IMG/VR virus record: IMGVR_UViG_3300025771_000186
Location: 1-23,949 of that record
From: a virus
Length of the DNA: 23,949 bases
Reading direction: 5' to 3' (one strand)
Part shown: piece after piece, positions 341 through 23,949 of the stretch
Position numbering within the stretch: position 1 is the first letter of the stretch
Layout of the letters: each line of letters opens with the position of its first letter
Made by a program: the position numbers and the translations under genes
The notes under the pieces: model-generated
Seen by the model: only the letters and a program-made list of their open reading frames with translations
What the model was told of the DNA's origin: nothing
Database searches by the model: none

Positions 341-1909
341 ATGGAATTTAATAATCCAAGCCTTATTGTAAAAGATTTGGCGTTTGGCAGTGATGCCAGA
401 GAGAAAGTAATTAGCGGTGTTACCAAATTAGCGCGCGCTGTTCGTTCAACCTTAGGAGCCTCAGGACAATGCGTTGTTTATGAGGATGCCATGGGCAATC
501 CGGTGATAACAAAAGACGGAGTAACCGTTGCGGAAAGCGTAGTCTTATACGATCCGGTTGAGAACATTGGTGCAACGCTTATAAAGGAAGCCGCAAAGAA
601 TACAGTGAAAGAGGCAGGGGATGGTACCACAACGGCTACTGTCCTCGCTCATTCACTATTAAAGAGTGCTAATTACGAATTAAAAGGCCATACCGTACGT
701 GAATTAAAAGACGGTATATATAAAGCACAGGACAAAGTATTACGGCTACTAGACAAGCACGCCATACCGGTCACCGGCGATATGCTTAACTCGGTAGCGA
801 CCATCAGCTGCAATAATGATGTCGAACTCGGCGCAGTAATAGGCGAGGCATACGCGAGAGTCGGAAAGGACGGAGTTGTGCTGATGGAAGAATCTGATAC
901 AGAAGAAACATACGTCGAGTTTGTCGACGGCGCCCAGGTTGAGTCTGGTTTAAAGTCACAACATCTGGCCACAGACAAAGACAAGGGCGTTTGCGTACTT
1001 GACAACCCGTATGTACTTATTGTTGATTCACCAATACCTAATATACGTAAAATACAAAGCGTATTAGAGTTTGTGATTAAGAATAACGCTTCATTGCTTA
1101 TTGTAGCATCGGTAGAACAACAACCAATGGCTACGCTTATTGCAAACAAAGTAAAGGGTAATATTAAAGTAAATATTATTGATCCTCCGGGCTTTGGCCC
1201 AACCCGTCGTGACACGGTCGAAGACCTGGCATTTTTGACGGGCGCCAAAATTATGTCGGAAGAGCTAGGTGATGATTTAGACCTCATCCAGCCAGATGTA
1301 CTTGGTAGAGTTACCAAATCGGTAACTGACGCTACAAATACGGTTTTACAGATTGATGACTTAGGTATTGATTTGGACGAACGTATTAAACTGGTTGAAG
1401 ACAGAATTAAAAACGAAACAAACGGCTATCTTAAGAAAAAACACGAAGCACGGCTTGCAATGCTCAACGGGGCAGTAGCGGTTGTAAAAGTATCAGGTCA
1501 ATCTAAGATTGAAATGAAAGAAAAGAAAGATCGTGTTGAAGATGCCATATATGCAGTTAAGGCTGCATTAAAAGAAGGTATTGTGCCAGGAGGCGGTATA
1601 GCGCTCTTAAATGCATCACTTAAGCTTAGCGATAGTAATATAGGTGAAAGTGTCTTAAAAGAGGCCATACGCGCTCCATTTGAGACCATACTAGCCAATG
1701 CTGGTTTGCCTGTGCCGGATGATGTAAACTTTGGTAAAAACAAAGGTATTGATGTGGTAAGTGGTAAAACCATTAATATGGTACGCCACGGAATTATCGA
1801 CCCTGTCTTGGTAACGAAGACCGCTTTAAAAAATGCAGTTAGTGTTGCTACAACTATATTGTCTGCAGATTGTGTAATTAATAACATGCGTTTAGATGAA
1901 AGCAATTAA
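341..1909 (+). CDS. groEL: Phage-encoded chaperonin GroEL (Hsp60, group I)
   Basis: A full-length 522-residue group I chaperonin that should form an ATP-driven folding ring in the host cytoplasm. The equatorial ATP site is intact: KDG at 58-60 (D59 matches E. coli D52), GDGTTTAT at 93-100 (D94 matches D87), D401 in RVEDA (matches catalytic D398) and a PGGG loop near 416-419. Several parts diverge. The normally near-invariant LGPKG segment reads LGASG at 38-42. The apical segment 201-209 replaces the E. coli substrate- and GroES-binding residues Y199, Y203 and F204 with L204, H208 and L209. The GGM-rich C-terminal tail is absent. The stop codon lies inside the start of groES, 14 bases overlapping, so the two are translationally coupled. 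The gene order groEL-groES is the reverse of the usual bacterial operon. The likely role is folding of phage virion proteins. The family assignment is certain; the clients are inferred. Confidence 0.97.
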
Positions 1910-2153
1910 TTATTACATAATAGTAGAGAAGATAAAAGAGGAGCCGAAAAAAGTAGGCGGACTCGAATTGACCGAATCACAGAATAGTGACATTAGGTAC
2001 TTAAAGGCAAAAGTAATTTCTACTGGTAATTTGGTAGAGGGTATTGCAGACGGCGATATTGTTTGGTATGACAAACACGCTGGGCACGGAATACAATTTA
2101 ACGAAAAACTTTATTATGTGCTAAAAGCAGGTGATATTGTAATTGTAGAATGA
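1896..2153 (+). CDS. groES: Phage co-chaperonin GroES (chaperonin 10)
   Basis: An 85-residue protein, shorter than the usual 94-97. It fits the GroES beta-barrel: an N-terminal strand, a mobile loop at about 15-33 with GGLEL at 21-25 (the GGIVL element in E. coli that docks on GroEL), the ISTGN strand-turn at 41-45, GDIVWY, and a C-terminal AGDIVIVE. Between STGN and GDIVWY only a few residues remain, so the roof hairpin that closes the dome in bacterial GroES is missing, as in phage T4 gp31. The docking triplet is L-E-L, with an acidic residue in the middle. The ATG lies inside the last codons of groEL and the stop overlaps the next start by 4 bases (ATGA). It should cap the upstream phage GroEL, and perhaps the host's. 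The assignment rests on the mobile loop, size and neighbour. Confidence 0.9.
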   Translation: MKAINYYIIVEKIKEEPKKVGGLELTESQNSDIRYLKAKVISTGNLVEGIADGDIVWYDKHAGHGIQFNEKLYYVLKAGDIVIVE

Positions 2154-7206: not shown

Positions 7207-10200
7207 ATGGCAAATCGCTTTCTTAATAACATAAGAATAAACGATGAGTACACTCTGCCCTCAACGGATGGAGATGCTAATCAGATAATTCAAACAGACG
7301 GTGCTGGTAATTTATCATTTGTAGACTTAAGCGCTGTTGAAGGTGCGCAGTCAAACTTAGTATACTTTGATGTAAAGAACTCTTCTGGTTCTACTATAAA
7401 CAAAGGGAAAGGTGTGATGGCCGTTGGAACAGATGGAAACTCTGGTCATATTCTTATTGATGAGATGGTTGCCGATGGAACGGTAGAGCCTAAATATTTT
7501 CTTGGGGTCTTAGAGACAACGGTAGCTAACGGCGGTTTTGCTAGAGTAATATCATTTGGGCAGCTTGATCAGTTTAATACAACGGGTCAAAATGGCGAGA
7601 CCTGGAATGATGGACAAATATTATGGTGTGATCCTGATAGCCCTGGAGATTTTACAATAACAGAACCTGACGGCCCAAACGTTAAGATAGCTGCTGCCTT
7701 TATATTAAACTCGTCTACAAACGGAAAGATACAGGTAAGGGTACAAGCTAACGAGGGTATACACGACCTGCACGACACAAAGATAACGTCGCAGGTAGAT
7801 GGTGACGTATTAGTTTGGGATAACACTACAGGTGTATGGTTCAATGACAGTACGTTAAATGTAGACTATACTAATGGTAGAGTAGGTATTGGGACAACTA
7901 GTCCTGAAACTAATTTACAGATTGGTGAAGGCACTGGAACGCAAAGACTTTTACTTTATGGAGCTAATTCATTAAATACATCATCTGAAATAATACTTGC
8001 TGATGCAAGTATTGGTCCTGCTGTTTATAGGTACGGTGCAGGTATTCGATTTGATTCAAATAGCAATATATTATCATTAAGATCTTTTTTTGATGGATCT
8101 GCTTCTCAAGATGTTTCTTTTATTGATTTATACAGAAACACAGCTGTTGAAAACACTCCTATAAGAATTAATTACGACACTAGTTTTTCTGGCAACGTTG
8201 GCATCGGGACGACTAGTCCTAGTGCTAAATTAGAAGTTGATCTAAACTCATCAAATTCTTACAATTCTGCAACATTGACTACACCAGTTGTAGCTGTAGC
8301 TAACAGAAACTCAAGCAATGTAAACAATCAAGCTGCTGGTCTTCACTTGTATGCTACAGGTTGGGCTGGAAGTACAACAGGTGTTATTTCTTTAAATGCC
8401 ATTCAGATTGGTGGTAATTCTAGTACAGCTGACTTCGCTATTCAAACTAGGAATAATGGGACTTACGCTGAGAAGTTTAGACTTACAGCAGCAGGAAACG
8501 TCGGGATCGGGACGGCTAGTCCTGGGGCTAAGTTGGAAGTAAATACTAGTGTTGAAAATGACGGAATAAGATTAATAGGATCCTCAGTTAACACTAGGTT
8601 GACAATAGAAAATTCAGGGGCACCCACAGGTAATAGAGTTATGTCTATTACAAATAATTCTAGCGTCCCAGGGTTAATTATTCAAAGACTAAATAACGAC
8701 TACACTTTTTCTAGCAATTTATTAAGAATTACTCCTGACGGCAACGTCGGAATCGGGACGAATAGTCCGCAGGTAAAATTAGAAACAAGAGGAACCGCAA
8801 GTAATACAATTTCATCAACAACAGCTGTTTCTAAAATAGTTGGAAACGTTGGTGCAGGTTCTGTCGGTTTATATTCTGGCTCACTTGCTGGGTCTCCTAC
8901 TTATGGAACTTGGATTCAATCAATGAGAGAAACTGACAATTTAGCTTTTCAATTATTGTTAAATCCAAACGGCGGCAACGTAGGTATCGGAACGACTAGT
9001 CCTAATACTAAGTTACACGTAGCTGGGATAGTTCAAGTAACTGAAAGTGGAAATACTGCTTTTTATGGAGGTAATTACGTTAGAGTGTTTGGTGATCAAA
9101 ATTACGGATTTAGAAACACTGGTGGTGCTTACATAGCAAACATATCAATGAGCGGAAACTCATATTTTAACGGAGGCAACGTCGGTATCGGGACAACTAA
9201 CCCACAGGCTAAGCTTCAGGTTAATGGTATAACTAACAGTGTTGGTTTTCAAACGGAGCAATCAAACGCAACTTATAATCTGCTATCAAGAGATTCAGCA
9301 GGGAATCCAGCTCTTTATGTGCAGTCTGCTAATAGCGACACAAATCAACCTATAGCTAAGTTTTTTTCCGGCAACGCTAGTCCTAATCAAGGATCGTTGG
9401 TTCTTAATGTAGGTAAAGATAAATCCTACTTTACAAACACTAACGTTGGAATCGGGACTACTAGTCCTGAAAAAGACCTTCATATTTCTTCAGCAGAACC
9501 AACAATAAGACTTCAAGATTCAGATGGTTCCAATCAGTGGGGGCAAGTAAGACAAACAAATGCTAATTTAGTGTTTACTGTTAGAAACGGCACTTCTAAC
9601 GGTCAAATGAATTTCCAAACATTCGACGGAACAACAACAGTAAATACAGTAACACTTAAAACAGGTAATCAAGTACAATTTAATCAATACGGTTTAGGCA
9701 CGTATACAGGTACGGCGACACAGCGTCTCGCCGTAGACTCTAGCGGTAATGTTATAGAGATACCAATCGGATCAGGGCCAGTAGATGGAAGCGGTACAGC
9801 TAACTACGTAACCAAGTGGAGTGATGCTGACACGATTACAAATTCTGTAATTTATGATAATGGGACTAACGTCGGGATTGGAACCACTAGTCCCACGCAG
9901 AAGCTTGATGTTAATGGAAATATAAGACTATCTTCAGATGCTCCTACTATCGTCGCTACTTCAACTAATAATGCCTCTGGTTTAAGATACAATACAACAG
10001 GCACCGCTAGTGACACTCATAGATTTCAGTATAATGGAGCTACGCAATTAAACATAAAAAGCTCAGGCAACGTCGGTATCGGAACGACTAGTCCAGCGCA
10101 AAAGCTACACGTTGTTGGAAATGGAAGATTTACAGGTGGCTTTTTCGACGTAGGACACGGAGTATCAACTGAAGAAGTAGCCTTAAGCATAGGTAATTCT

Positions 10201-13200
10201 AGAACAGATAATGGATATGCATATATTGATTTAATTGGCGACACCACCTATACGGACTATGCCTTAAGAATTATTAGAGGAAATACAGGACCAAATACTA
10301 TTTCTCAAATTAATCACAGAGGTACTGGAGATTTTGAGATTAGAACCACAGACGCAGCAAATATTACTTTTGACACAGCAAGCTTGGAGCGATTGAGAAT
10401 TACTTCCTCCGGCAACGTCGGGATCGGGACGACCTCACCTACTACTAAATTAGATATATTAAGAGCAACGGGAGCTCCTAGTTTAACTGCTGATAATGGC
10501 GCTTTTACTATCTCAGATACTTTTGTTGGGGCGCAAATGGGTTCTATCCCTACATCACCGTATACGTTTTGGATACAAGGCAAGGATAGGAGAAATAATG
10601 GTGGGTCATTCCCAATTTCATTAAATCCAGTTGGCGGTAACGTTGGGATTGGGACGACTAGCCCTAGTGAGAAGTTAGAGGTTGCAGGAAATGTAAAACT
10701 CAACTCAGGAGCTTTGATTATATCAGGTACTCCTGCAGGCCAAGGTGCTGAAACAAGGTACATAAGTGGAGCAGCCACTACAAACGACCTTTGGTTTAAT
10801 GTACCTACTAATGGTAGATACAGGTTTGCTGTAGCGGACTCTCAAAAAGTTGAAATAACATCTGCAGGAAACGTCGGGATCGGAACGACTAGTCCTGCTA
10901 CTAAGTTACATGTTAACGGTGATATTGGCGCATACACTTCTGATTGGGTAGCCACTACTTCTGGCTCTAGGTTATTGATGAAAACGTTTGCTAGTACAGG
11001 AGACACATATTCATTAATTCAAGCACAAGATATTGGAGGTAACAGTAACAATGCTTTAGTTTTGCAGCCTTATGGAGACAACGTCGGTATCGGAACGACC
11101 ACCCCGGCACAAAAACTCCACGTTTCAGGTAATGCTAGGGTAACGGGTGCATACTACGATTCAAATAACTCTCCTGGAACTAGCGGCCAGGTTCTGTCTT
11201 CTACTGCCACGGGTACTGATTGGGTGTCACTATCTGAAATATCAGGTGTAGATGGAACAGGTACGGCTAATTATGTGGCTAAGTGGAGTGACACAGATAC
11301 GATTACTGATTCTGTTATTTATGACACTGGAACTAACGTTGGTATTGGGACGACTGTGCCCGATGCTAAATTACAAGTTGTACGATCTGCGGCGTTACCA
11401 AATGGCACAAATAGTGACTCAGGAAACTGGATAGAATCAGCGGCATTTAGGATAACAAGTGGTAATAATGGATTGTCTGTAGGTGTTGACAATGTTTCTA
11501 ATTCTAGAACATCGTGGATCCAGTCCGGGCATAGAGATACGCAATATGCATCCTCTTTAAGTGATTCAGAATTATTATTACAACCGCTAGGCGGCAACGT
11601 TGGGATTGGGACGGCTAGTCCTAACCAAAAATTACATATTTCGGGTAATGTTAGGATTGATGATGGATATACCTTAAGCTGGGGAGCTGATACAACTAAG
11701 ATAGCTGGGAACAGTTCAAATAATACTCTGTCTTTAAAAACATCAAGCACGGATAGACTTTATATAAATTCCTCAGGCAACATTGGGATTGGTACGACCA
11801 GTCCTGAAGAATTACTTCATATTAAAAATGGGGACGTTGGGGTTACACCTTATGATTTAGGAACAGGGCTAAATATAGAAGGCACAACCTCCAATGTTGG
11901 AATTAATATAATTTCTAGTAATACTGGCCAAGGAAGAATTTACTTTGCTTCGCCGTCCAGCAATACTGCGGGGGCTATAGAATATAATCATGACGCTACT
12001 CTTAGTAATGGTTTTATGAAATTTAGGACTGGCAATTCTGAAAGAATGCGGATTGACGGTTCTGGCAACGTTGGGATTGGTACGACTAACCCGCAAGCAC
12101 AACTACAAATAGATACACCTGAAACTAACGGCGCGGGTCAAGGGCTTAGAATTAATAGGCCATCAGCTGGGACTCATTATCACTCAGTAGAGTTTGCTAC
12201 AAATGGAACTGTAGATTGGTCTGTGGGTCAAAACAGTAACGATGCTTTTGAAATATATGAAGATGGGGTTGCTGTATTAACAAGATTTACTATAAAAGAA
12301 GGCGGCAACGTCGGGATTGGGACGACTAGTCCACAAAGCAGACTTGAGGTTGTAAGTACTATTCCATCATCTATACCTGCACTGGGGCTAGATTCTAATC
12401 TTTTTCAAGTAGGTGGAGGTACTTATGGAACAATGTTCGGGTCCATAAGTAATGGCAATGGTTATATTCAGCAGCAAAGATTTGATGGAACAGCCACCGC
12501 TTATAGTTTATTGCTACAGCCAAACGGGGGTAACGTTGGTATTGGAACACCTAGTCCTCAATTTAAGCTTGACATAGATGGTGGGGCAGCAGTCCCATTA
12601 AGATTAAATAGTACTGCTGATTATCAATTAAAATTAACTTCTTCTGATTCGTGGACAGGTATTGAGTTTGATGATGGAGCAGCGTCTGCAGCAGATCATA
12701 TTTGGCACAATGGGCAAAATCAAACTTTTGCCTTTGGAGGTGGAGGTAGTAATGTTTCTGGAAAAAAACTTCATGTACACGGAGCGACAACTATAGGTAG
12801 CGGTTTAGCATCAACAGCCGCTCCAACAAATGGTCTTTTAGTTGAGGGCAACGTCGGTATTGGGACTACTAGTCCTGGTTTTAAACTATCCGTTGCAATG
12901 GACGGGGATACCTATAGCGCAGACTTTTACCAAAGTAATAGCGGAACAGACAAATACAATGCCATTCGTGTAAGAGGTGCAATGACTAGTGCGGTTGGAT
13001 ACTATGGCATTGGTGGCTCGACTGCAGGCAATCCTGCATTTAGAGATGCCTTTGTAGTTGGAACGCAGTCAGCGCATAGTTTTAATTTAGCAACTAACGA
13101 TACTGCTAGAATGACTATTACTAGCAGCGGAAACGTCGGGATTGGAGAGACTAATCCTGGGGCTAAGTTAGAGGTAAACGGAAATATCAAATTAAGCAGT

Positions 13201-14163
13201 ACGGTTGGCTCTACAGCAACACCAAGCAATATCTGGTTAGGTAATGATTATAGTAATGGGCAAACTAGAGACAAATTAAAGATATATCTGTATAATTCTG
13301 GAACTGAACAATATGGGTTTTCTGTAGGTAACCAAGGAGATGTTCAATATCATTCAAATCAAACACACGATTTTTATGTAGACAATTCTTTTAAAGTAAG
13401 AATTGACTCTTCGGGCAACGTTGGGATTGGAACCACTAGCCCTGGGGCCAAGCTAACGGTTGCTGGTTCTGCTATTTCTATTTCAAATGGCTGGACAGGA
13501 AACCACGATATTTTATTTGTTGGGGGTTCAGCAAGTAGTACAGGGAGCGCTAACCAAACTGCCGCAAGAATTAGAAGTACAGCATCTGTTCCAGGCGGGC
13601 TCGCTGTTGGAGATTTGCTTTTTACAGTGAACAGCGGTGATGCATTTGTTGACGCATTATACATTAAAGAAGACGGCAACGTTGGGATTGGAACCACTAG
13701 TCCCGACCAGCTATTAGTAGTAGCTGATTCCTCAACAAATGCAGAAAGAGGAATTATTATAAGAAACTCTCATGGCGATACATCTGCAGACGCTTCTTTA
13801 CGTATAGATGGATACGCTGGTTCATTTATAGATTTCTATAGAAACTCTGGACTTCGTTGGAAATTTAATAGAGTAGCATTCTCTGACGACTTTAAAATCT
13901 CAGCCGCTGGAGCTGGCGGAGCTGGAGATGTAATGTATTTTGATTACAACACAGGAAACGTAGGTATTGGAACAACTACACCTTCATCTAAACTTCAAGT
14001 CGCTGGCGGTGTACAGATGGCTGACGACACAGATACAGCTTCGGCATCTAAAGTAGGGACACTAAGGTATAGAGCAGACGCAAACAATAGCTATGTAGAT
14101 ATGTGTATGCAGACTGGAGCATCGACATACGAGTGGATTAATATAGTACAAAACAACTGGTAA
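7207..14163 (+). CDS. Giant modular tail fibre / adhesin with 24 GNVGIGTTSP repeats
   Basis: A 2318-residue fibre-type protein. Residues 1 to about 220 are a unique N-terminal region (MANRFLNNIRINDEYTLPST at the start; a compact domain near 45-180), presumably anchoring it to the virion. From residue 225 on, 24 copies of GNVGIGTTSPxxKLxV occur every 61-142 residues, with variable beta-rich cassettes between them. Many cassettes end in MRI or LRITSSG, others in LLLQPxGG, directly before the repeat. The C-terminal cap (about 2270-2318) reads TASASKVGTLRYRADANNSY and onward, ending EWINIVQNNW. No peptidase S74 (endosialidase chaperone) domain is visible, although this repeat type often accompanies one. 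The likely role is a very long trimeric adhesin with exchangeable modules. The stop is directly followed by the ATG of a second fibre gene built from the same modules. The structural role is well supported; the receptor is unknown. Confidence 0.9.
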   Translation: MANRFLNNIRINDEYTLPSTDGDANQIIQTDGAGNLSFVDLSAVEGAQSNLVYFDVKNSSGSTINKGKGVMAVGTDGNSGHILIDEMVADGTVEPKYFLGVLETTVANGGFARVISFGQLDQFNTTGQNGETWNDGQILWCDPDSPGDFTITEPDGPNVKIAAAFILNSSTNGKIQVRVQANEGIHDLHDTKITSQVDGDVLVWDNTTGVWFNDSTLNVDYTNGRVGIGTTSPETNLQIGEGTGTQRLLLYGANSLNTSSEIILADASIGPAVYRYGAGIRFDSNSNILSLRSFFDGSASQDVSFIDLYRNTAVENTPIRINYDTSFSGNVGIGTTSPSAKLEVDLNSSNSYNSATLTTPVVAVANRNSSNVNNQAAGLHLYATGWAGSTTGVISLNAIQIGGNSSTADFAIQTRNNGTYAEKFRLTAAGNVGIGTASPGAKLEVNTSVENDGIRLIGSSVNTRLTIENSGAPTGNRVMSITNNSSVPGLIIQRLNNDYTFSSNLLRITPDGNVGIGTNSPQVKLETRGTASNTISSTTAVSKIVGNVGAGSVGLYSGSLAGSPTYGTWIQSMRETDNLAFQLLLNPNGGNVGIGTTSPNTKLHVAGIVQVTESGNTAFYGGNYVRVFGDQNYGFRNTGGAYIANISMSGNSYFNGGNVGIGTTNPQAKLQVNGITNSVGFQTEQSNATYNLLSRDSAGNPALYVQSANSDTNQPIAKFFSGNASPNQGSLVLNVGKDKSYFTNTNVGIGTTSPEKDLHISSAEPTIRLQDSDGSNQWGQVRQTNANLVFTVRNGTSNGQMNFQTFDGTTTVNTVTLKTGNQVQFNQYGLGTYTGTATQRLAVDSSGNVIEIPIGSGPVDGSGTANYVTKWSDADTITNSVIYDNGTNVGIGTTSPTQKLDVNGNIRLSSDAPTIVATSTNNASGLRYNTTGTASDTHRFQYNGATQLNIKSSGNVGIGTTSPAQKLHVVGNGRFTGGFFDVGHGVSTEEVALSIGNSRTDNGYAYIDLIGDTTYTDYALRIIRGNTGPNTISQINHRGTGDFEIRTTDAANITFDTASLERLRITSSGNVGIGTTSPTTKLDILRATGAPSLTADNGAFTISDTFVGAQMGSIPTSPYTFWIQGKDRRNNGGSFPISLNPVGGNVGIGTTSPSEKLEVAGNVKLNSGALIISGTPAGQGAETRYISGAATTNDLWFNVPTNGRYRFAVADSQKVEITSAGNVGIGTTSPATKLHVNGDIGAYTSDWVATTSGSRLLMKTFASTGDTYSLIQAQDIGGNSNNALVLQPYGDNVGIGTTTPAQKLHVSGNARVTGAYYDSNNSPGTSGQVLSSTATGTDWVSLSEISGVDGTGTANYVAKWSDTDTITDSVIYDTGTNVGIGTTVPDAKLQVVRSAALPNGTNSDSGNWIESAAFRITSGNNGLSVGVDNVSNSRTSWIQSGHRDTQYASSLSDSELLLQPLGGNVGIGTASPNQKLHISGNVRIDDGYTLSWGADTTKIAGNSSNNTLSLKTSSTDRLYINSSGNIGIGTTSPEELLHIKNGDVGVTPYDLGTGLNIEGTTSNVGINIISSNTGQGRIYFASPSSNTAGAIEYNHDATLSNGFMKFRTGNSERMRIDGSGNVGIGTTNPQAQLQIDTPETNGAGQGLRINRPSAGTHYHSVEFATNGTVDWSVGQNSNDAFEIYEDGVAVLTRFTIKEGGNVGIGTTSPQSRLEVVSTIPSSIPALGLDSNLFQVGGGTYGTMFGSISNGNGYIQQQRFDGTATAYSLLLQPNGGNVGIGTPSPQFKLDIDGGAAVPLRLNSTADYQLKLTSSDSWTGIEFDDGAASAADHIWHNGQNQTFAFGGGGSNVSGKKLHVHGATTIGSGLASTAAPTNGLLVEGNVGIGTTSPGFKLSVAMDGDTYSADFYQSNSGTDKYNAIRVRGAMTSAVGYYGIGGSTAGNPAFRDAFVVGTQSAHSFNLATNDTARMTITSSGNVGIGETNPGAKLEVNGNIKLSSTVGSTATPSNIWLGNDYSNGQTRDKLKIYLYNSGTEQYGFSVGNQGDVQYHSNQTHDFYVDNSFKVRIDSSGNVGIGTTSPGAKLTVAGSAISISNGWTGNHDILFVGGSASSTGSANQTAARIRSTASVPGGLAVGDLLFTVNSGDAFVDALYIKEDGNVGIGTTSPDQLLVVADSSTNAERGIIIRNSHGDTSADASLRIDGYAGSFIDFYRNSGLRWKFNRVAFSDDFKISAAGAGGAGDVMYFDYNTGNVGIGTTTPSSKLQVAGGVQMADDTDTASASKVGTLRYRADANNSYVDMCMQTGASTYEWINIVQNNW
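9784..9867 (+). repeat. Fibre module 'DGxGTANYVxKWSDxDTIT', copy 1 of 3
   Basis: This segment encodes DGSGTANYVTKWSDADTITN and a following VIYDNGTN that leads straight into repeat copy 8. The same protein module occurs at 11251-11334 in this gene and at 14308-14370 at the beginning of the next gene. The module is conserved in protein with many silent third-base changes, which points to older duplication or import rather than very recent copying. Confidence 0.85.
11176..11304 (+). repeat. Inter-gene paralogous segment, copy inside the 2318-residue fibre
   Basis: It encodes GTSGQVLSSTATGTDWVSLS, then EISGVDGTGTANYVAKWSD. The matching copy lies at 14233-14361 in the next gene and reads almost the same in protein (GTSGQVLSSTGTATDWVSLS, EISGVDGTGTANTVAMWSD). 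The DNA differs at many third positions but keeps the same length and frame. It links the middle of one fibre gene with the start of the next. Confidence 0.88.
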
Positions 14164-17100
14164 ATGAGTAAAAAATATATCACCGACGTTATAAAGATTG
14201 ACGGTCAACTACTAGACGGTAACGGCTCCGCAGGAACATCTGGGCAGGTTCTATCATCCACAGGCACAGCCACAGACTGGGTATCCTTGAGTGAAATATC
14301 TGGAGTGGATGGAACAGGCACGGCTAACACTGTAGCTATGTGGAGTGACTCTGATACGATTACAGATGCGCCTATAACCATAAGTGGTAATGATGCTACT
14401 TTTTCAGGGAGTGTAACAGCAGCAAATTTATTTTTAGGAAGTTCTTCAGTTAGAGTTTCACCGGGAGGAAGTGGTGAACTTGGATTAAATTATAATACTG
14501 GAGCAACTGGTAGTTTAGTTTGGTATGCTGGTACAACTTCTTCTAAGTTTAGTGTAACTAACGCAGGTAATGCAACTTTTGCAGGAACTATAGCGGTACA
14601 AGGTACGGGTGATTCTTATTTTACAGGCAACGTCGGGATTGGAGAGACTAATCCTTTGGAAAAATTACACGTTAACGGGGGGAATGTATTAATTCAAGGA
14701 GGTCCATCAACCACTTCTCAAAGTGAATTAGGGTTTACTAATGCTTTTGATACGGCATTTATTAGAAGTAGGTATACTAATCCAAGTGCGACTACGGAAA
14801 CATATTTAGCATTTCATACAAATACTGCAGGCGATAACAACGGTACAGTAGCGGAACAAATGCGTATTGCAGGTAATAAAGTAGGAATTGGGACAACTAA
14901 TCCTTCATATAAATTAGATGTAAAAGGGGGCGGTGGTTTTAACGATATATTAAACTTATCTGGAGCGCAGCCGAGGTTCCTGCTAATTGAAACTGATACA
15001 ACAGATACAAATTACGAAATATTAGTTTCAGGCGGAACTTTATTTTTTAGAACAACCAATGATGCTATTACAAGTTTTTCAAATAAGCTTTCTTTAACTC
15101 AAGCTGGAGTCCTTACTCTTAATGGATATGGTGCTGGTATTCTTACAACAAACGCAAGCGGACAAGTATCAGTAGATACTACTACGTATATTCCCACTAC
15201 AGATTACAATGATTTTGTAAATGTTGCTGGCGATACAATGACTGGCGTATTAACTATTTTAAATTCTAGCGATCCAAAATTAATACTCCAAACCTCTCCA
15301 GGAGATAGTAGCGATTGGAATTATATAAATTTTGTTGGCAGAGATACGGTTCGAGACGGGTATATTGGTACAGAATTCAGCGGAGATATGAGGGTGTATT
15401 CTGATAAAAATACTTCCAGCGTTGAATTAACCGCTAATGGTATTATTTTAAATGGTGGCGATGTTGGTATTGGAGCGACTAGTCCTGAAAACAAACTACA
15501 CGTTCAACAGCCTTCTGCATATACAGGCATACATACAACAGCGGGTATTAGAGTAAAATCAGATGCAGCTAGTTCTATTGGAAGTTATCACGGAACTATA
15601 GCTTTATCAAGGGGTACAGGTTCAGTAGCAATTTCAGCAGTTCAAGAAGCTACTGATAGTGACGTGATGGGTATGGCATTTTTTACACATCCATCAGCCA
15701 CAGGAGGCGATGCTTCTGTAGAGCAAATGCGTATTGACGCAGACGGCAACGTTGGGATCGGAACGACTTCCATAGACGAAAAATTGCATTTATATAATAA
15801 TGGGGATGTGGGAATAAGATTGCAAAATCAAGCCGACACATCTGGCAATACTTGGAGATTATGGCAGGACAACTGGAACGGGGCTAGTAGTTTTACATTT
15901 AATATAGATTATGGTTCAACCAATATTATTACTGCACTAACCAATGGCCGTGTCGGAATTGGGACGGATAATCCTGGGGCTAGACTTCAAATAGCCGGTA
16001 GTGACAGCTTTAATGCTCTTAAAATAACCGACTCAGGTAACGGTGACGGGTTCAAAGTCTCAAGTGTCACAACTCAAGGTACATATATTCAGGCGTACGA
16101 CGCCTCACATGTACAGACTATAAAGTTAGATGCTAGAACCGATAATGGAACAAGACACACCTATTTTAATGGAGGCGGCTACGTAGGGATTGGAACGACT
16201 GATCCACAAGAAAAATTACACGTAAATGGAAATCTTGGTTTAGGTACATCTCCTACAATTAAATGGACAAGTAATACTTTAAGATTTGAACCATTTGGAG
16301 ATTATATTCCTGTTGTTGTACTTGGCGGCACTACATCATATGCCCCAAGATTTGAAATAAAAAATGCAGGCGATGCAGCTACAGTAGTAATGTTAGATGG
16401 TTCTGGCAACTCTTATATTAACACAGGCAACGTTGGGATTGGAACTGCTAGTCCTGGTGAGAAACTTACAGTAAATGGGGCTATAGTATGGCAGGGAGCA
16501 TTAGTTTCTTCACAAACTAACAGCGGTGTTTTAGATAGGTCAGGTAATGATTTAAGAATTAGGGCTTATGGCGCAACCGCTGGAACTGGAAATTTAGTAT
16601 TTAGAACAGGTGGCGGTGGCGGTTCTGTTGATTCAGAAGCAATGCGCATTGATTCTAGCGGCGACGTAGGGATTAATGAAACTAACCCGTCTCAAAAACT
16701 ACATGTCAGCGGCAATTTAAGAGTAACAGGCTTTTACTATGACTCCACTAATTCAGCTGGGACTACCGGTCAGGTACTTCGTGTTACAAGCGGTGGCACT
16801 GGCTGGGATACATTAACCGCTTCAGACGTGGGGGCGGCTACAACTTCACACACCCATGCAGCCGCTGATATAACTAGCGGAACATTTGCAGACGCTAGAA
16901 TAGCATTAACTAACATTACACAACATACAGATCCTAAATATCTAAGAAGTGATGCATCAGATACTGCCTCCGAACTAATTACTTTCCAAAAAGGTATTTC
17001 CCAAGACGGTAATGCTAAATTCTATACCTGGAGAGCTTTAAACAATACTTCAGATACCTCTAATCAATATTATAGAATTGCTAGAATTACTAGTACACAG

Positions 17101-18686: not shown

Positions 18687-19028
18687 ATGGTAACATTTAA
18701 TTGGGACTGCACAACCGTTGAGGTTATGCTAACAGAGGGAGACTTAAACAACGTTGTGTATAACGTAGAGTGGATACTTACGGGAATATCGGATCAGCTT
18801 GATACCGAAGGAGAACCGTACACCGCATTTGCTGAAGGACAGCAAAAATTAAACACAAGTAACATTACTGAATTCATTTCGTTCAATGACTTGACAAATG
18901 AAATAGTTACGCAATGGGTGAAGGATGCTATGGGGCCAACACACGTGTCTATCCAGGAATCTAATGTTAGAAATAATATTGAGGCTCAGATAAATCCTGT
19001 GACAGCCGTGATGAAAATACAAAATTAA
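18687..19028 (+). CDS. Small virion-type protein, first of a tandem paralogous pair
   Basis: This 113-residue acidic protein has no cysteine-rich, membrane or catalytic motif. It begins TFNWDC at 3-8, followed by a beta pattern (VVYNVEWILTGISDQLD) and a C-terminal half with a helix (DLTNEIVTQWVKDAMG). It aligns without gaps to the next gene, about half of positions identical by my count. Proteins with this FNWDC...VVYNVxWxLTG pattern occur, from memory, next to fibre and structural genes of marine phages, but I cannot name a function. The gene follows the large fibre by 5 bases. A role as a minor virion protein or fibre chaperone is inferred from position. Confidence 0.8.
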   Translation: MVTFNWDCTTVEVMLTEGDLNNVVYNVEWILTGISDQLDTEGEPYTAFAEGQQKLNTSNITEFISFNDLTNEIVTQWVKDAMGPTHVSIQESNVRNNIEAQINPVTAVMKIQN

Positions 19029-19070: not shown

Positions 19071-19412
19071 ATGACAACTTTTAATTGGGATTGTAGAACA
19101 GTGGATGTATATCCAACAAGCGGCGACAACACAGATGTAGTATACAACGTGCATTGGCGCTTAACAGGTGTATCTGATCAGCTAGACGCGAATGATAATC
19201 CGTATTCGGCTACTGTAATTGGAACACAAACATTAAGTACAGAGGAGATTGTAGACTTTGTACCATTTGAAGACCTAACTCACGAACAAATTGTAACTTG
19301 GGTACAAGATGCAATTGGAGCTGAGCAGGTAACTCAAATGGAAGACAATGTAAATAATCAAATTGATAGCTTAATTACACCAACGTCTGTTACCAAAACT
19401 ATTGAATTGTAG
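19071..19412 (+). CDS. Small virion-type protein, second of a tandem paralogous pair
   Basis: Also 113 residues and collinear with its upstream neighbour. Shared elements are TFNWDC, VVYNVxWxLTG, SDQLD, PYxA, DLTxE and WVxDAxG. It differs mainly in charged surface positions and at the C-terminus. A 42-base A-rich gap precedes it (19029-19070), one of the longest non-coding gaps here, giving an A-rich leader just before ATG. Tandem duplication with divergence to about half identity suggests two related but distinct jobs, for example two positions in the same virion structure. The function is unknown. Confidence 0.82.
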   Translation: MTTFNWDCRTVDVYPTSGDNTDVVYNVHWRLTGVSDQLDANDNPYSATVIGTQTLSTEEIVDFVPFEDLTHEQIVTWVQDAIGAEQVTQMEDNVNNQIDSLITPTSVTKTIEL

Positions 19413-19762: not shown

Positions 19763-19930
19763 ATGCATTACTCCGTAGGCCAAGAGGTTTACGGAGGGCA
19801 TTGTATCTGTAATATAATTGAGGAAGAAGAAAAGTATTCCATATACATAGAAAAAAACAAAGAAGTTATTCTTTGGAAAGACTTTAATAAAAATATGGGT
19901 ATTGCCGTAGAGTATAATTTAGATTATTAA
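19763..19930 (+). CDS. Small conserved-looking phage protein, YGGHCICNI type
   Basis: I chose the ATG at 19763 (55 residues) because it leaves a normal 28-base gap after the previous gene. The ATG at 19697 would overlap that gene by 38 bases and add a lysine-rich leader (MKKKLMKLIRKISIG) unlike the rest. The protein (MHYSVGQEVYGGHCICNIIE and onward) looks like a small SH3- or KOW-like beta barrel: GxEVYGG, several short strands, then SIYIEKNKEVILWKDFNKNM and EYNLDY. Similar small proteins precede terminase genes in other Bacteroidota phages, from memory. The function is unknown. Its stop overlaps the next start by one base. Confidence 0.7.
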   Translation: MHYSVGQEVYGGHCICNIIEEEEKYSIYIEKNKEVILWKDFNKNMGIAVEYNLDY

Positions 19931-20523
19931 TGAGAAGTCTATATAATTTTATTGTAACACCAAAAGGTGATCGTACTACAAGTAAAACAGAAATAGACGG
20001 CAAAGAATTAATGCTAAATACAGAATTGCAAAATCATCAATATGTAAATCGTATTGGTGTTGTAATTGGCTCACCTATTATTGGAGAAACAGAAATAAAG
20101 CCTGGCGACGAAGTAATTGTACATCACAATGTTTTTAGAAGATTTTACGATGTACGTGGTAAAGAAAAAAACAGCAGCAGCTATTTTGAAGAAGGAATGT
20201 ACTTTGTAACTCCAGATCAATTATATGCGCATAAACCACCTGGTAGTATTTGGCAACCAACAGAAGGGTTTTATTTTGTAAAGCCACTAAAAAATAATGA
20301 AACGTTTGCTACAGATAAAGAAATAATTGGCAAAGGTGTTATAAAATTTGGCGATGAAAATCTACCGCCTGGCACATTAGTTGGCTTTAGACCAGGGTCT
20401 GAATATGAGTTTATCATAGACAACGAAAGACTATACCGTGTGCCACTACAATCTATTACAATTAAATATGAATATCAAGGAGACGAAGAAGAGTATAATC
20501 CAAGCTGGACATCGGGCAGTTGA
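19930..20523 (+). CDS. Tandem GroES-like (chaperonin-10 fold) protein
   Basis: A 197-residue protein that appears to hold two GroES-type beta barrels. In the first (about 1-100), YNFIVTPKG is the opening strand, GKELMLNTE at 24-32 lies where the GroES mobile loop GGIVL would be, RIGVVIGSPI at 41-50 matches the GxVxxVG strand, and KPGDEVIVHHNVF at 57-69 matches the VKVGDxVxF strand. DQLYA closes it. In the second (about 112-182), GFYFVKPLK opens, GKGVIKFGDENLPPGTLVGF follows, then IIDNERLYRVPLQSITIKY. No docking tripeptide is visible in the second barrel. It might be a second co-chaperonin for the phage GroEL, or a virion protein that reused the fold. It lies between small late genes and terminase. 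The fold is inferred by eye, with moderate support. Confidence 0.7.
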   Translation: MRSLYNFIVTPKGDRTTSKTEIDGKELMLNTELQNHQYVNRIGVVIGSPIIGETEIKPGDEVIVHHNVFRRFYDVRGKEKNSSSYFEEGMYFVTPDQLYAHKPPGSIWQPTEGFYFVKPLKNNETFATDKEIIGKGVIKFGDENLPPGTLVGFRPGSEYEFIIDNERLYRVPLQSITIKYEYQGDEEEYNPSWTSGS

Positions 20524-20746
20524 GGAATTAATCAAGGTGGCGGAAGAAAAAATTATAACCAATACCGAGGACGACGTTTCTGCAGATAGATTAAAAAACG
20601 CAGCGGCAACTAAAAAGCTAGCAATCTTTGATGCATTTGAAATATTAAATCGCATACAAGAAGAAGAGCGTATTTTAGAAAACAAACCTAAAGAAGACGA
20701 CACACAAAAAGCTTTTTCTGGTTTCGCCGAAAGAAGGTCTAAGTAA
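20468..20746 (+). CDS. Putative terminase small subunit
   Basis: Position just before the large terminase, with a one-base overlap, is the main evidence. The protein is helical and charged: GHRAVEELIKVAEEKIITNT, then DDVSADRLKNAAATKKLAIF, DAFEILNRIQEEE, and a basic tail (FAERRSK). Small terminases of this kind bind the packaging site as an oligomer. I chose the ATG at 20468 (92 residues, 56 bases overlapping the previous gene). An earlier in-frame ATG at 20438 would add ten residues and more overlap, and a GTG at 20537 would avoid overlap but cut the first helix. The ADRLKNAAATKKLAIFDAF core is, from memory, well conserved beside terminases of flavobacterial phages. The name is an inference from context. 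Confidence 0.7.
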   Translation: MNIKETKKSIIQAGHRAVEELIKVAEEKIITNTEDDVSADRLKNAAATKKLAIFDAFEILNRIQEEERILENKPKEDDTQKAFSGFAERRSK

Positions 20747-22965
20747 TGTACGAGCAAACGTTATTTAAAATCATAGAGCCTATAAAGCTAACCACAATTA
20801 ATAGATTAAATAAATCTAAGAAGTGGGATTATGGTTATAATAAAGAACACGACGTTATTGTAATTAGCAAGACAGGTCAGATAGGTGATATTGTAGAAAT
20901 ACAAAACCTACGTATCGCATTGCCGAAAGAGCCAAAGTGTATAGCAAAAGGCGAAAACAAATGGACGCCACAGGAGTATCCTAAGGAGCTTAAAAATATT
21001 AAGACTATATTCGACTGGGAAACATATCCGGATGAGTTTAAGGACACCTGGGGAGCTTATATTGATGAAGAGTTCACACGACGCGATGAAGGATATTGGT
21101 TTTATAGTAATAATGTACCAACTTATATAACCGGAACGCATTATATGTACTTGCAATGGAGCAAGATTGATGTAGGTAAACCGGATTATCGTGAAGCAAA
21201 CAGATTATTTTTTATATTTTGGGAAGCTTGTAAGGCGGACAGCAGGTGCTATGGCATGTGTTATCTTAAAAACCGTCGTTCTGGTTTTTCATTTATGGCT
21301 TCTGGCGAAGTTGTAAATCAAGCTACAATTACAAGTGATGCTCGTTTTGGTATATTATCTAAGTCTGGTGCCGATGCTAAAAAGATGTTTACCGACAAGG
21401 TTGTACCAATATCCGTAAACTATCCTTTTTTCTTTAAGCCAATACAAGACGGTATGGACCGTCCAAAAACAGAATTAGCATATCGCGTACCAGCTTCAAA
21501 GCTAACGCGTAAATCAATACAGTCAAAAGAACAAAGGCAACAGCTAGAAGGTCTTGATACGACAATTGACTGGAAGAACACAGGTGACAACAGTTATGAT
21601 GGTGAAAAGCTAAGACTGTTAGTGCATGACGAATCTGGTAAGTGGGAAAGACCTGACAATATATTAAACAACTGGCGTGTAACAAAAACAACACTTAGAC
21701 TTGGTTCTCGTATTATAGGTAAGTGTATGATGGGTTCAACCAGTAATGCGCTTGATAAAGGTGGTGACAATTTTAAAAAGTTGTATTATGATTCAGATGT
21801 TACCAAACGAAACGCCAATGGACAGACTCGCTCGGGATTATATTCTTTGTTCATACCTATGGAATGGAACTACGAGGGATTCATTGATACTTATGGAGTA
21901 CCTGTATTCAACACACCGGACGAACCAGTCGAAGCGCCAGATGGAACATTAATAGAAGTAGGTGTAATTGATTACTGGCAAAATGAAGTAAGTGGATTAA
22001 AATCTGATCCTGACGCGCAAAATGAATTTTATCGTCAGTTTCCGCGTACAGAAGAACACGCATTTCGTGACGAAGCAAAGAACAGTATATTTAACTTAGT
22101 TAAAATACACCAGCAAATAGATTACAACGGTGATATAAGATATAATGCGCCGACAACACGAGGAAGTTTTCAATGGAAAAATGGTGTTAAAGACAGTGAA
22201 GTAATATTTAGTCCTAACCCACAAGGTAGATTTAATATAAGCTGGGTACCACAAAGAGAATTACAAAATAAACAATTTGTAAAAAACGGATTAAAATGGC
22301 CCGGTAATGAGCACGTTGGAGCTTTTGGGTGCGACAGTTACGATATATCCGGTACAGTTGGTGGTAATGGATCAAAAGGTTCATTGCACGGACTTACAAT
22401 ATTTAGCATGGAAGATGCGCCGCCAAATACATTCTTTTTAGAATATATTGCAAGACCGCAAACAGCGGAAATGTTTTTTGAAGATGTACTTATGGCATTA
22501 GTATTTTATGGCATGCCGCTGCTCGCTGAAAATAACAAACCTAGGTTGTTATATTATTTAAAGCGCAGAGGTTACCGTGGTTATTCAATGAATAGACCAG
22601 ACAAAATTTGGAATAAGTTATCTGCTGCTGAAAAAGAAATAGGTGGTATACCAAACTCTAGTGAAGATATTAAGCAAGCGCATGCTGCTGCAATAGAATC
22701 GTATATTGAAAAACACGTAGGATTAAAAGAAGATGGTACCTATGGTACTATGTATTTTAATGATACATTAAATGATTGGGCAAGGTTTGATATAAATAAT
22801 CGAACAAAATTTGATGCTGCAATCAGTTCAGGGTTGGCAATAATGGCTTGTAATAGACATTTATACCGACCAGTTGGTGAAATACAAACGCAAAAGTTAA
22901 ATATAAATATAGGCCGGTATAATAATAACGGTGGAAGATCAAAAATAATAGAGCATTATGGCTGA
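20746..22965 (+). CDS. terL: Terminase large subunit (packaging ATPase-nuclease)
   Basis: A 739-residue, long form of the phage DNA-packaging motor. The N-terminal ATPase has an atypical Walker A at 175-182 (KNRRSGFS), then Walker B LLVHDE with D295-E296. The C-terminal RNase H-like nuclease starts with AFGCDSYD at 526-533 (D530 the likely first metal ligand), a possible second acid in LLAENNKPRLLYYLKRRG, and a final acid in TKFDAAISSGLAIMA. The enzyme translocates DNA into the prohead through the portal and cuts concatemers. The segment GYWFYSNNVPTYITGTHYMY and the block SKSGADAKKMFTDKVVPISV resemble, from memory, TerL of crAss-like and other Bacteroidota phages. Its ATG is inside the stop of the putative small subunit, and its stop overlaps the portal start by 8 bases. 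Confidence 0.95.
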   Translation: MYEQTLFKIIEPIKLTTINRLNKSKKWDYGYNKEHDVIVISKTGQIGDIVEIQNLRIALPKEPKCIAKGENKWTPQEYPKELKNIKTIFDWETYPDEFKDTWGAYIDEEFTRRDEGYWFYSNNVPTYITGTHYMYLQWSKIDVGKPDYREANRLFFIFWEACKADSRCYGMCYLKNRRSGFSFMASGEVVNQATITSDARFGILSKSGADAKKMFTDKVVPISVNYPFFFKPIQDGMDRPKTELAYRVPASKLTRKSIQSKEQRQQLEGLDTTIDWKNTGDNSYDGEKLRLLVHDESGKWERPDNILNNWRVTKTTLRLGSRIIGKCMMGSTSNALDKGGDNFKKLYYDSDVTKRNANGQTRSGLYSLFIPMEWNYEGFIDTYGVPVFNTPDEPVEAPDGTLIEVGVIDYWQNEVSGLKSDPDAQNEFYRQFPRTEEHAFRDEAKNSIFNLVKIHQQIDYNGDIRYNAPTTRGSFQWKNGVKDSEVIFSPNPQGRFNISWVPQRELQNKQFVKNGLKWPGNEHVGAFGCDSYDISGTVGGNGSKGSLHGLTIFSMEDAPPNTFFLEYIARPQTAEMFFEDVLMALVFYGMPLLAENNKPRLLYYLKRRGYRGYSMNRPDKIWNKLSAAEKEIGGIPNSSEDIKQAHAAAIESYIEKHVGLKEDGTYGTMYFNDTLNDWARFDINNRTKFDAAISSGLAIMACNRHLYRPVGEIQTQKLNINIGRYNNNGGRSKIIEHYG

Positions 22966-23949
22966 ACCAGTTGTAAAAAGTTATTTTCCAAGCCAAATCG
23001 CTAGTGATTTAGAAAAAATTACGCCTGAGTATGGACTTAAGGTGGCTAAGGCTATAGAGCACGAGTGGTTTAAAAGGGATTCCGGTACTAATCGGTATTA
23101 TAACAACCAAAATACTTTTCATCGCCGCAGATTATATGCGCGTGGTGAACAATCAATTCAAAAGTATAAAGATGAATTATCTATTAATGGTGATTTGTCT
23201 TACCTTAATTTAGACTGGAAGCCTGTACCAATTATACCTAAGTTTGTAGATATAGTTGTAAATGGTATGTCAGACCGTGTGTTTGATATTAAAGCATATT
23301 CGCAAGATAGTATCGGGGTTAATAAAAGAACCAAGCATATGAAATCCATATTAGCAGATATGGAAATGCGAGATGTAAATAATCAAATACTAGAATCATT
23401 AGGCATTAATCTATATAAAAACGATCCTAAAACCTTACCTGAAACTTCTGAGGAATTAGATGTATATATGCAAATGTCATATAAACAATCTATTGAAGTC
23501 GCTGCTGAGAAAGCTATTAATAATATTTTAGATAATAATAAATATGATTTAACACGTCGCCGATTAATGTATGATTTAGTTACTATCGGTATGGCTTGTG
23601 TTAAAAATAATTTTTCTACTTCAACAGGAGTTACTGTAGAATATGTTGACCCTGCTGATCTTATTTATTCTTATACTGATTCTCCATATTTTGAAGACAT
23701 ATATTATATTGGTGAAATTAAAACAGTTCCAATTAATGAGCTTAAAAAACAATTTCCTAATTTAACAAATGAAGATCTTGAAGAAATAACAAAGCAAGGT
23801 ATTCAAAATACGGATTTTTATCATAGAACAATGGATGAGACAAATAACATTGACTCAAACTCTGTTCAAGTATTATACTTCAATTATAAAACATATATGA
23901 ATGAAGTATATAAAATTAAAAAAACGGCTAGTGGTGCTTCAAAAGCTTT
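22958..23949 (+). CDS. Portal protein, 5' part (runs off the window)
   Basis: An open frame from ATG 22958 to the window end (330 codons, no stop). It starts MAEPVVKSYFPSQIASDLEK, overlapping terL by 8 bases. Next come RRLYARGEQSIQKYKDEL, LNLDWKPVPIIPKFVDIVVN and GMSDRVFDIKAYSQDS, then a helical part and TVEYVDPADLIYSYTDSPYF, EDIYYIGEIKTVPINELKKQ. This order, an N-terminal 'YARG' helix, 'KFVDxxV.G..DR' and later 'VDPADLIYSYTDSPYF', matches portal proteins of Bacteroidota phages as I remember them. Directly following terL is the classic portal position. It forms the dodecameric ring at the capsid vertex. The C-terminal part lies outside the window. Confidence 0.88.
   Translation, partial: MAEPVVKSYFPSQIASDLEKITPEYGLKVAKAIEHEWFKRDSGTNRYYNNQNTFHRRRLYARGEQSIQKYKDELSINGDLSYLNLDWKPVPIIPKFVDIVVNGMSDRVFDIKAYSQDSIGVNKRTKHMKSILADMEMRDVNNQILESLGINLYKNDPKTLPETSEELDVYMQMSYKQSIEVAAEKAINNILDNNKYDLTRRRLMYDLVTIGMACVKNNFSTSTGVTVEYVDPADLIYSYTDSPYFEDIYYIGEIKTVPINELKKQFPNLTNEDLEEITKQGIQNTDFYHRTMDETNNIDSNSVQVLYFNYKTYMNEVYKIKKTASGASKA

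Follow-up and report, generated by a model that had tools for sequence, protein, structure and literature searches.

Organization of the locus

The window, meaning the whole 23,949-base virus record IMGVR_UViG_3300025771_000186, has a groEL gene followed by a groES gene, the two being intact, co-directional, and overlapping by 14 bases, and carries a second gene of the GroES type ahead of its terminase gene. The features to which the text refers are as follows.

341..1909, + strand: groEL, 522-aa group I chaperonin with intact catalytic aspartates, matched in Pfam and PHROGs
1896..2153, + strand: groES, 85-aa co-chaperonin with one domain, a GGLEL mobile loop, and a shortened roof loop
1896..1909, + strand: overlap of groEL end and groES start, 14 bases
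14164-18681: tail-fibre-like gene, 1505 aa, with matches to tail fibre families
19930..20523, + strand: tandem (two-domain) GroES-like protein, 197 aa, phrog_13932
20438-20746: 102-aa ORF with GTG as first start, between the tandem GroES and terminase genes
20746..22965, + strand: terminase large subunit, phrog_6681 (1.4e-168), the usual neighbour of the tandem GroES gene
22958..23949, + strand: portal protein, phrog_6547 (2.2e-62), cut off by the contig end

The end of groES in turn overlaps the start of the next ORF (2150) by four bases. Virion, lysis, and packaging genes had been predicted downstream of the pair; terminase, portal, and tail-fibre-like genes are indeed present, but no lysis gene was confidently identified among the 20 ORFs compared with PHROGs, of which 10 were compared with Pfam as well. 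The window contains no tRNA, and its first 3 kb hold no inverted repeats and only short two-copy repeats.

The terminase matches 87 phage records, specifically 68 of Flavobacterium, 15 of Cellulophaga, two of Tenacibaculum, one of Maribacter, and one unassigned. A related terminase, a portal of phrog_6547, and a tandem cpn10 gene before the terminase are traits that the window shares with Pervagoviridae and Pachyviridae. The window derives from a Pervagoviridae/Pachyviridae-like tailed phage, to which no family rank is given here as the contig is fragmentary, and the host of this phage is probably a member of the Bacteroidota.

The GroEL barrel

The groEL product is a full group I GroEL with intact ATPase residues, in agreement with the original prediction. 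Specifically, the Pfam Cpn60_TCP1 domain spans residues 30-515 of 522 (E 3.3e-54), the protein matches phrog_5725 'chaperonin groEL' (9.4e-132), and its best sequence matches in the PDB are group I GroELs. The window GroEL has D52, D87, and D398 (E. coli numbering) along with the DGTTT motif at 87-91, all of which also occur in 100% of 83 sequences of its clade. Among 17 ATP-site positions checked against E. coli, 15 are identical, the differing ones being P33A, a change found in 83/83 clade sequences, and N479D, found in 81%. GroEL genes are, as had been supposed, uncommon in phages, occurring in 271 of the 50,697 records of the phage collection, some of which bear bacterial names.

Several residues associated with the bacterial protein have been replaced. 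R197 and E386, each present in 100% of 44 bacterial sequences, are mostly S/C and K in the phage clade, and the window GroEL lacks the C-terminal GGM tail of the E. coli protein. Eight sites assigned to the contact between rings were considered, five of which are conserved in bacteria (at least 85%). None of these five is kept as the clade majority, compared with 74 of 123 conserved equatorial sites (hypergeometric 0.009, alignment columns being taken as independent); K105 and E461 nevertheless remain more frequent in the clade than any other residue at their positions (40% and 30%, respectively). Loops near 433 and 461-467 are shortened as well. The loss, at these sites, of residues that bacteria conserve suggests that the phage barrel may operate as a single ring or through an altered ring-ring contact.

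The surface on which a lid would dock is also of interest. Structural work describes contacts from the IVL loop of GroES to L234, L237, and V264 of GroEL (PMC3514286). At these positions the phage clade has Q234 in 100% of sequences (83/83), L237 in 100%, and A264 in 66%.

The GroES lid

That a GroES gene adjoins groEL is borne out by a full-length Cpn10 fold in the adjacent 85-aa product (PF00166, E 1.2e-09), by a match to phrog_3188 'co-chaperonin GroES' (1e-12), and by an AF2 model (pLDDT 89.0) for which Foldseek returns Cpn10 chains and T4 gp31. A tblastn search of the phage records with the window GroES gave nothing at E 0.01; since the GroES of relatives is recovered by profiles, this empty result reflects sequence divergence and not absence. 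Across the clade the mobile loop reads GG-[LI]-x-[LIM], with G22 in 100% of 92 rows, and the middle residue of the loop triplet is E in 72%, mostly as L-E-L, where E. coli has IVL. Nine alignment positions are missing from the window GroES where E. coli has a loop. This missing segment is taken to be the roof hairpin, and by analogy with T4 gp31 the shortened roof would give a more open dome.

Co-variation between GroES residue 24 and GroEL residue 264 was considered as evidence of contact and set aside: E pairs with A/S/T in 65/67 cases and I/L with M in 14/16, but the two traits need just 3 and 4 changes on the tree, so that the pattern is lineage-bound and amounts to only 2-3 independent pairs.

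Pairing, order, and ancestry of groEL and groES

A linked phage GroES had been expected to be rarer still than a phage GroEL. This expectation is not borne out here: among the best matches listed from related IMG/VR loci, every distinct GroEL with a length of at least 480 aa (82/82) has a groES gene downstream and on the same strand, and cultured relatives carry one too; each IMG/VR scan gave the best 80 of a larger number of matches, and the counts cover close relatives. Among these 82 relatives the two genes overlap by 14 bases, as predicted for and found in the window, in 37, by 1 base in 19, by 4 in 9, by 17 in 9, and by 20-31 bases in 6, with no overlap in one and a 254-base gap in one, all overlaps being upper limits given that the ORF caller starts at the first start codon. 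Within the lineage of the window the groEL-groES pair is thus the rule, and the two genes are probably translationally linked.

The order is, as originally proposed, the reverse of that in bacteria, for which groES-groEL was found in 49 of 49 loci returned by the search, a subset of all GroELs found. Other phages vary: groES-groEL occurs in immuto, DAC16, and a faecal phage, groES-ORF-groEL in Cellulophaga phage phi38:1, and in Vibrio phage 207E48.1 no GroES was found within 800 bases of GroEL. Locus L281, a 439-aa partial GroEL from a Maricaulis bin with no adjoining groES, was left out of both the order counts and the tree, and L262 and L280 have no GroEL row in the order survey.

Phylogenetic analyses place both proteins in phage clades and not within one bacterial genus. 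The window GroEL falls in a clade with 99% SH-aLRT support composed of 23 rows, 17 from phage or viral contigs and 6 from bins that resemble stray phage contigs, while 49 bacterial GroELs, with DAC16 among them, fall outside it (93 rows, 16 viral-contig rows having been sampled from 88 distinct GroELs; quick method, several long branches). The GroES tree (48 rows) similarly separates the phages with GroEL before GroES, together with phi38:1, from bacteria, immuto, DAC16, and phi18:3 (95/99), on a short alignment with long branches for which the AU test does not reject a single bacterial clade (p 0.44). GroELs of the phage type are also found in bins labelled Alphaproteobacteria, Maricaulis, Rickettsiales, Euryarchaeota, and others (L247-L253, L266, L267, L269-L279); these are most likely viral contigs that were assigned to bacterial or archaeal bins. 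The phage-encoded GroEL-GroES pair is probably functional.

A second, two-domain GroES-like gene

The gene at 19930-20523, missed in the original prediction, matches phrog_13932 'co-chaperonin GroES' (2.1e-14). Searches with phrog_13932 also match 9 of 14 control bacteria, and the tandem gene was scored only by a frame of ~190-220 aa. By this definition it precedes the terminase gene in 73 of the 79 distinct terminase genes among the best matches listed in the terminase scan; the six without a call have less than 400 bases of sequence upstream. All three scans together give 121/127 among the matches listed; as 48 of these terminase genes entered through the tandem query, the 73/79 from the terminase scan alone is the unbiased figure. 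Spacing is similarly regular, the tandem gene sitting 200-249 bases before the terminase in 118 of the 127 distinct terminase genes listed.

Among 46 whole records selected for their length or interest, 36 contained Cpn60, 38 Cpn10, and 42 a member of the tandem family. Considering the 38 IMG/VR records by the scan that found them, the tandem gene is present in 14/14 from the GroEL scan, and GroEL in 10/15 from the terminase scan and 6/9 from the tandem scan, the remainder consisting of 31-53 kb fragments. In each of the 30 IMG/VR records (at least 30 kb in length) that contain GroEL as well as tandem GroES, the two genes share a strand, with the tandem gene downstream of GroEL in 27 and the other three fitting a circular genome cut elsewhere; assembly chimerism, which was looked for, was not seen in these records.

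An AF2 model of the tandem protein contains two GroES-like barrels (mean pLDDT 83, pTM 0.74). Its best match among solved structures is chloroplast Cpn20 chain 7ekq_R (Foldseek E 5.2e-04; Z 9.1 over 153 residues, rmsd 3.6), domain 1 matches single GroES chains at Z 5.5-7.8 and dehydrogenases score under 5, with the caution that a Z under 8 can reflect merely a common arrangement; in the viral structure library the phi18:3 cpn10 protein ranks second. Like Cpn20, the protein has two GroES domains per chain. Unlike 7ekq_R, in which the GGVLL loop occurs in both domains, it shows a segment resembling a mobile loop solely in domain 1, where the triplet is mostly hydrophobic in the window clade (L-[IL]-L), and no mobile loop is seen in domain 2 of the alignment. 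As the Cpn20 trait of one mobile loop per domain is lacking, the protein is not classed as a Cpn20. An HHNVFRR segment and the tail YEYQG..E.YNPSW are near-invariant in the tandem clade, the tail being absent from MW202828, Elemovirus, and Panino. A comparison of the tandem profile with that of the single GroES family gave 40.8% probability (E 0.00028), and the sole match of the tandem profile among PDB sequences, a weak one to an acyltransferase (E 0.036), was taken as chance. The tandem protein would represent a second, separately placed lid usable with host or phage GroEL. A simple division in which the tandem loop is of the type suited to host GroEL and the single loop of the phage type was considered but not retained as a general rule, the tandem loop reading L-E-L in phi18:3 and M-A-V in phi38:1.

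Relatives and known chaperonin systems

Several named phages share part of this arrangement. In Elemovirus (Flavobacterium phage vB_FspP_elemoF_6-3D, NC_055853), groEL is followed by groES on one strand with a 1-base overlap, and a tandem GroES gene lies directly before the terminase, with the portal next; its GroEL is, however, 37% identical to that of the window, its groEL-groES strand is opposite to that of the terminase, and the terminase is longer, with no separate ORF between it and the tandem gene. Closer in layout is Caudoviricetes sp. ctfjg026 from Manatee Spring (MW202828), in which groEL, cpn10, structural genes, tandem GroES, a small ORF, terminase, and portal follow one another on one strand except for one intervening ORF. 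Its terminase is 66.5% identical to that of the window, whereas its GroEL is only 37% identical and its tandem protein lacks the YEYQG..YNPSW tail. Phage phi38:1 (Callevirus, Pervagoviridae) likewise has GroEL, a single GroES, and a tandem GroES before the terminase, but in the bacterial order groES-(ORF)-groEL and with its chaperonin genes on the strand opposite to the terminase.

A different state is seen in the Cellulophaga phages phi18:3, phi46:3, phi19:3, and phi13:2 (Pachyviridae), four closely related cultured genomes that encode a single GroES and a tandem GroES, with one small ORF separating the tandem gene from the terminase, and in which no GroEL was found. The lid genes can therefore be retained where a phage barrel is missing. 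In phi18:3 the loop triplet of the single GroES is I-I-I, and this protein falls with GroES of the bacterial type; I-I-I is the commonest triplet in bacterial GroES (14 of 43 rows, 9 rows being unmatched by the pattern), as would be expected if this lid caps host GroEL. Two GroES genes are already annotated in the GenBank and RefSeq records of phi18:3 and Elemovirus. In Tenacibaculum phage Gundel_1 (L256), with a related terminase, a profile search recovered neither GroEL nor Cpn10 nor tandem GroES, and the system is thus dispensable for that body plan.

More distant systems offer functional parallels. T4 gp31 is a phage co-chaperonin of GroES fold without roof loops, an absence proposed to aid the folding of a large capsid protein (PMC6318259). 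The window GroES is also shortened at the roof, yet T4 uses host GroEL and the window encodes its own, and the likeness is one of working and not of membership. The giant phages EL, OBP, and AR9 resemble the window in encoding GroEL: EL double rings are described as splitting into single rings with ATP, and those of OBP and AR9 as single rings, in two reports (PMC7185714, PMC9598537). These chaperonins are there described as working without a co-chaperonin, in contrast to the GroES linked to groEL in the window and its listed relatives.

Proposed function and alternative explanations

Starting from gene identity, catalytic residues, conserved pairing and order, and phage ancestry as observed above, we infer how barrel and lid might cooperate, when, and on which clients. 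The explanation that we consider probable is that the phage uses a group I chaperonin of its own, a GroEL barrel with a cognate GroES lid, to fold virion proteins during infection. Coupled translation would ensure that GroEL and GroES are made together, the barrel would take up unfolded virion proteins, and ATP and the GroES lid would shut the cage, from which folded subunits would then be released. By analogy with T4, the most plausible client would be the major capsid protein. The tandem lid, made from a separate site near the terminase, may cap either the phage or the host barrel. A study of phi38:1 reports mass-spectrometric detection of its GroEL protein both in infected cells and in samples of free virions (PMC13288928). 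General late co-expression across the wider group is argued against by Elemovirus and phi38:1, given the opposite strands of their groEL-groES and terminase genes.

The original idea of a self-contained folding machine is, on these sequences, plausible but incomplete, because the genome has a further gene, that for the tandem GroES-like protein, and because both lids are retained in related phages that have no GroEL.

With respect to the tandem protein, it is possible, if doubtful, that it is not a lid at all and instead takes part in head assembly or packaging, its GroES fold having been borrowed, an explanation compatible with the one proposed for the pair. Its nearly constant site before the terminase, the lack of a mobile loop in domain 2, the near-invariant C-terminal tail and HHNVFRR segment, and the profile comparison with single GroES are all consistent with such a role. 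Against it stand the mobile-loop-like segment kept in domain 1 and the match of the two-domain fold to Cpn20; moreover, in phi18:3 MS/MS is noted for four virion genes, with the tandem gene noted by similarity only.

A less likely explanation holds that both lid genes serve mainly to redirect host GroEL, in the manner of T4 gp31, with phage GroEL as an accessory or regulatory barrel. The four Pachyviridae that hold both lids without GroEL fit this proposal, as does the mostly hydrophobic triplet that the window clade has in its tandem loop. The loop of the single GroES is, however, mostly L-E-L, phage GroEL has Q at the L234 contact throughout its clade, and GroEL and GroES are kept together in all 82 relatives among the matches listed. 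Comparably unlikely is a more elaborate scheme in which a reprogrammed single-ring GroEL works with two lids, one a private single-domain lid fitted to the phage barrel and the other a tandem one-loop lid that can also cap host GroEL and maybe forms a taller cage of two tiers in which capsid or packaging proteins would fold, in a lineage that would be widespread.

Finally, a recent bacterial gene capture or an assembly chimera is highly improbable: similar GroELs do occur in bins with bacterial or archaeal labels (7 loci), but 4 of the 6 searchable bin genomes also hold an ordinary groES-groEL GroEL, the tree joins the window GroEL with viral contigs, and GroEL and tandem GroES share a strand in every record of the 30 holding both.

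Implications

The phage GroEL-GroES pair is itself already known, the cultured relatives Elemovirus, phi38:1, and Panino carrying both genes. Chaperonins of the virioplankton are reportedly treated in work by Marine et al. from 2017. GroEL has been reported from 36 genomes in a marine group of the phi38:1-like kind (Nishimura et al., 2017; PMC5332604), and the core proteins listed for Pervagoviridae include chaperonin cpn10 (PMC8776804). Other papers report GroEL and GroES in Panino (PMC11590407), methylation of phi38:1 GroEL (PMC13288928), and homologs of both GroEL and GroES in some phages (a 2020 paper; PMC7185714). No discussion of a two-lid arrangement was found in open-access titles, the beginnings of abstracts, and passages. 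In the literature found, phage chaperonins are represented by T4 gp31, a lid only, and by giant-phage barrels said to need no lid. The present lineage, with many viral-contig members, adds a barrel with two types of lid, and among its cultured relatives are genomes that naturally have lids and no barrel. Cultured Cellulophaga and Flavobacterium phages allow direct tests of how lids and barrels are matched and of whether single-ring GroELs with lids evolved in phages.

Additional features of the window

The small ORF between tandem GroES and terminase is common to the window, MW202828, phi18:3, and Gundel_1, and the terminases of Elemovirus, Panino, and phi38:1 are ~140 residues longer, the extra part being N-terminal. 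Fusion of the 102-aa ORF to the N-terminus of these longer terminases was examined as a candidate, but colinear matches were weak (E 0.59 to 4.1) and it was not adopted; a split or fusion of a packaging protein is possible.

Elsewhere in the window, the ORFs at 7207-14163 (2318 aa) and 14164-18681 (1505 aa) are very long and contain an NVGIGTTSP-type motif in many copies. The 97-aa protein encoded at 4185-4478 matches, at its C-terminus, eight phage families of unknown function, the match falling at the very end of the profile in seven of the eight, and several of these families consist of much longer proteins. Lastly, two adjacent genes (18687-19028 and 19071-19412) encode 113-aa proteins that each match phrog_7802, a family of unknown function.
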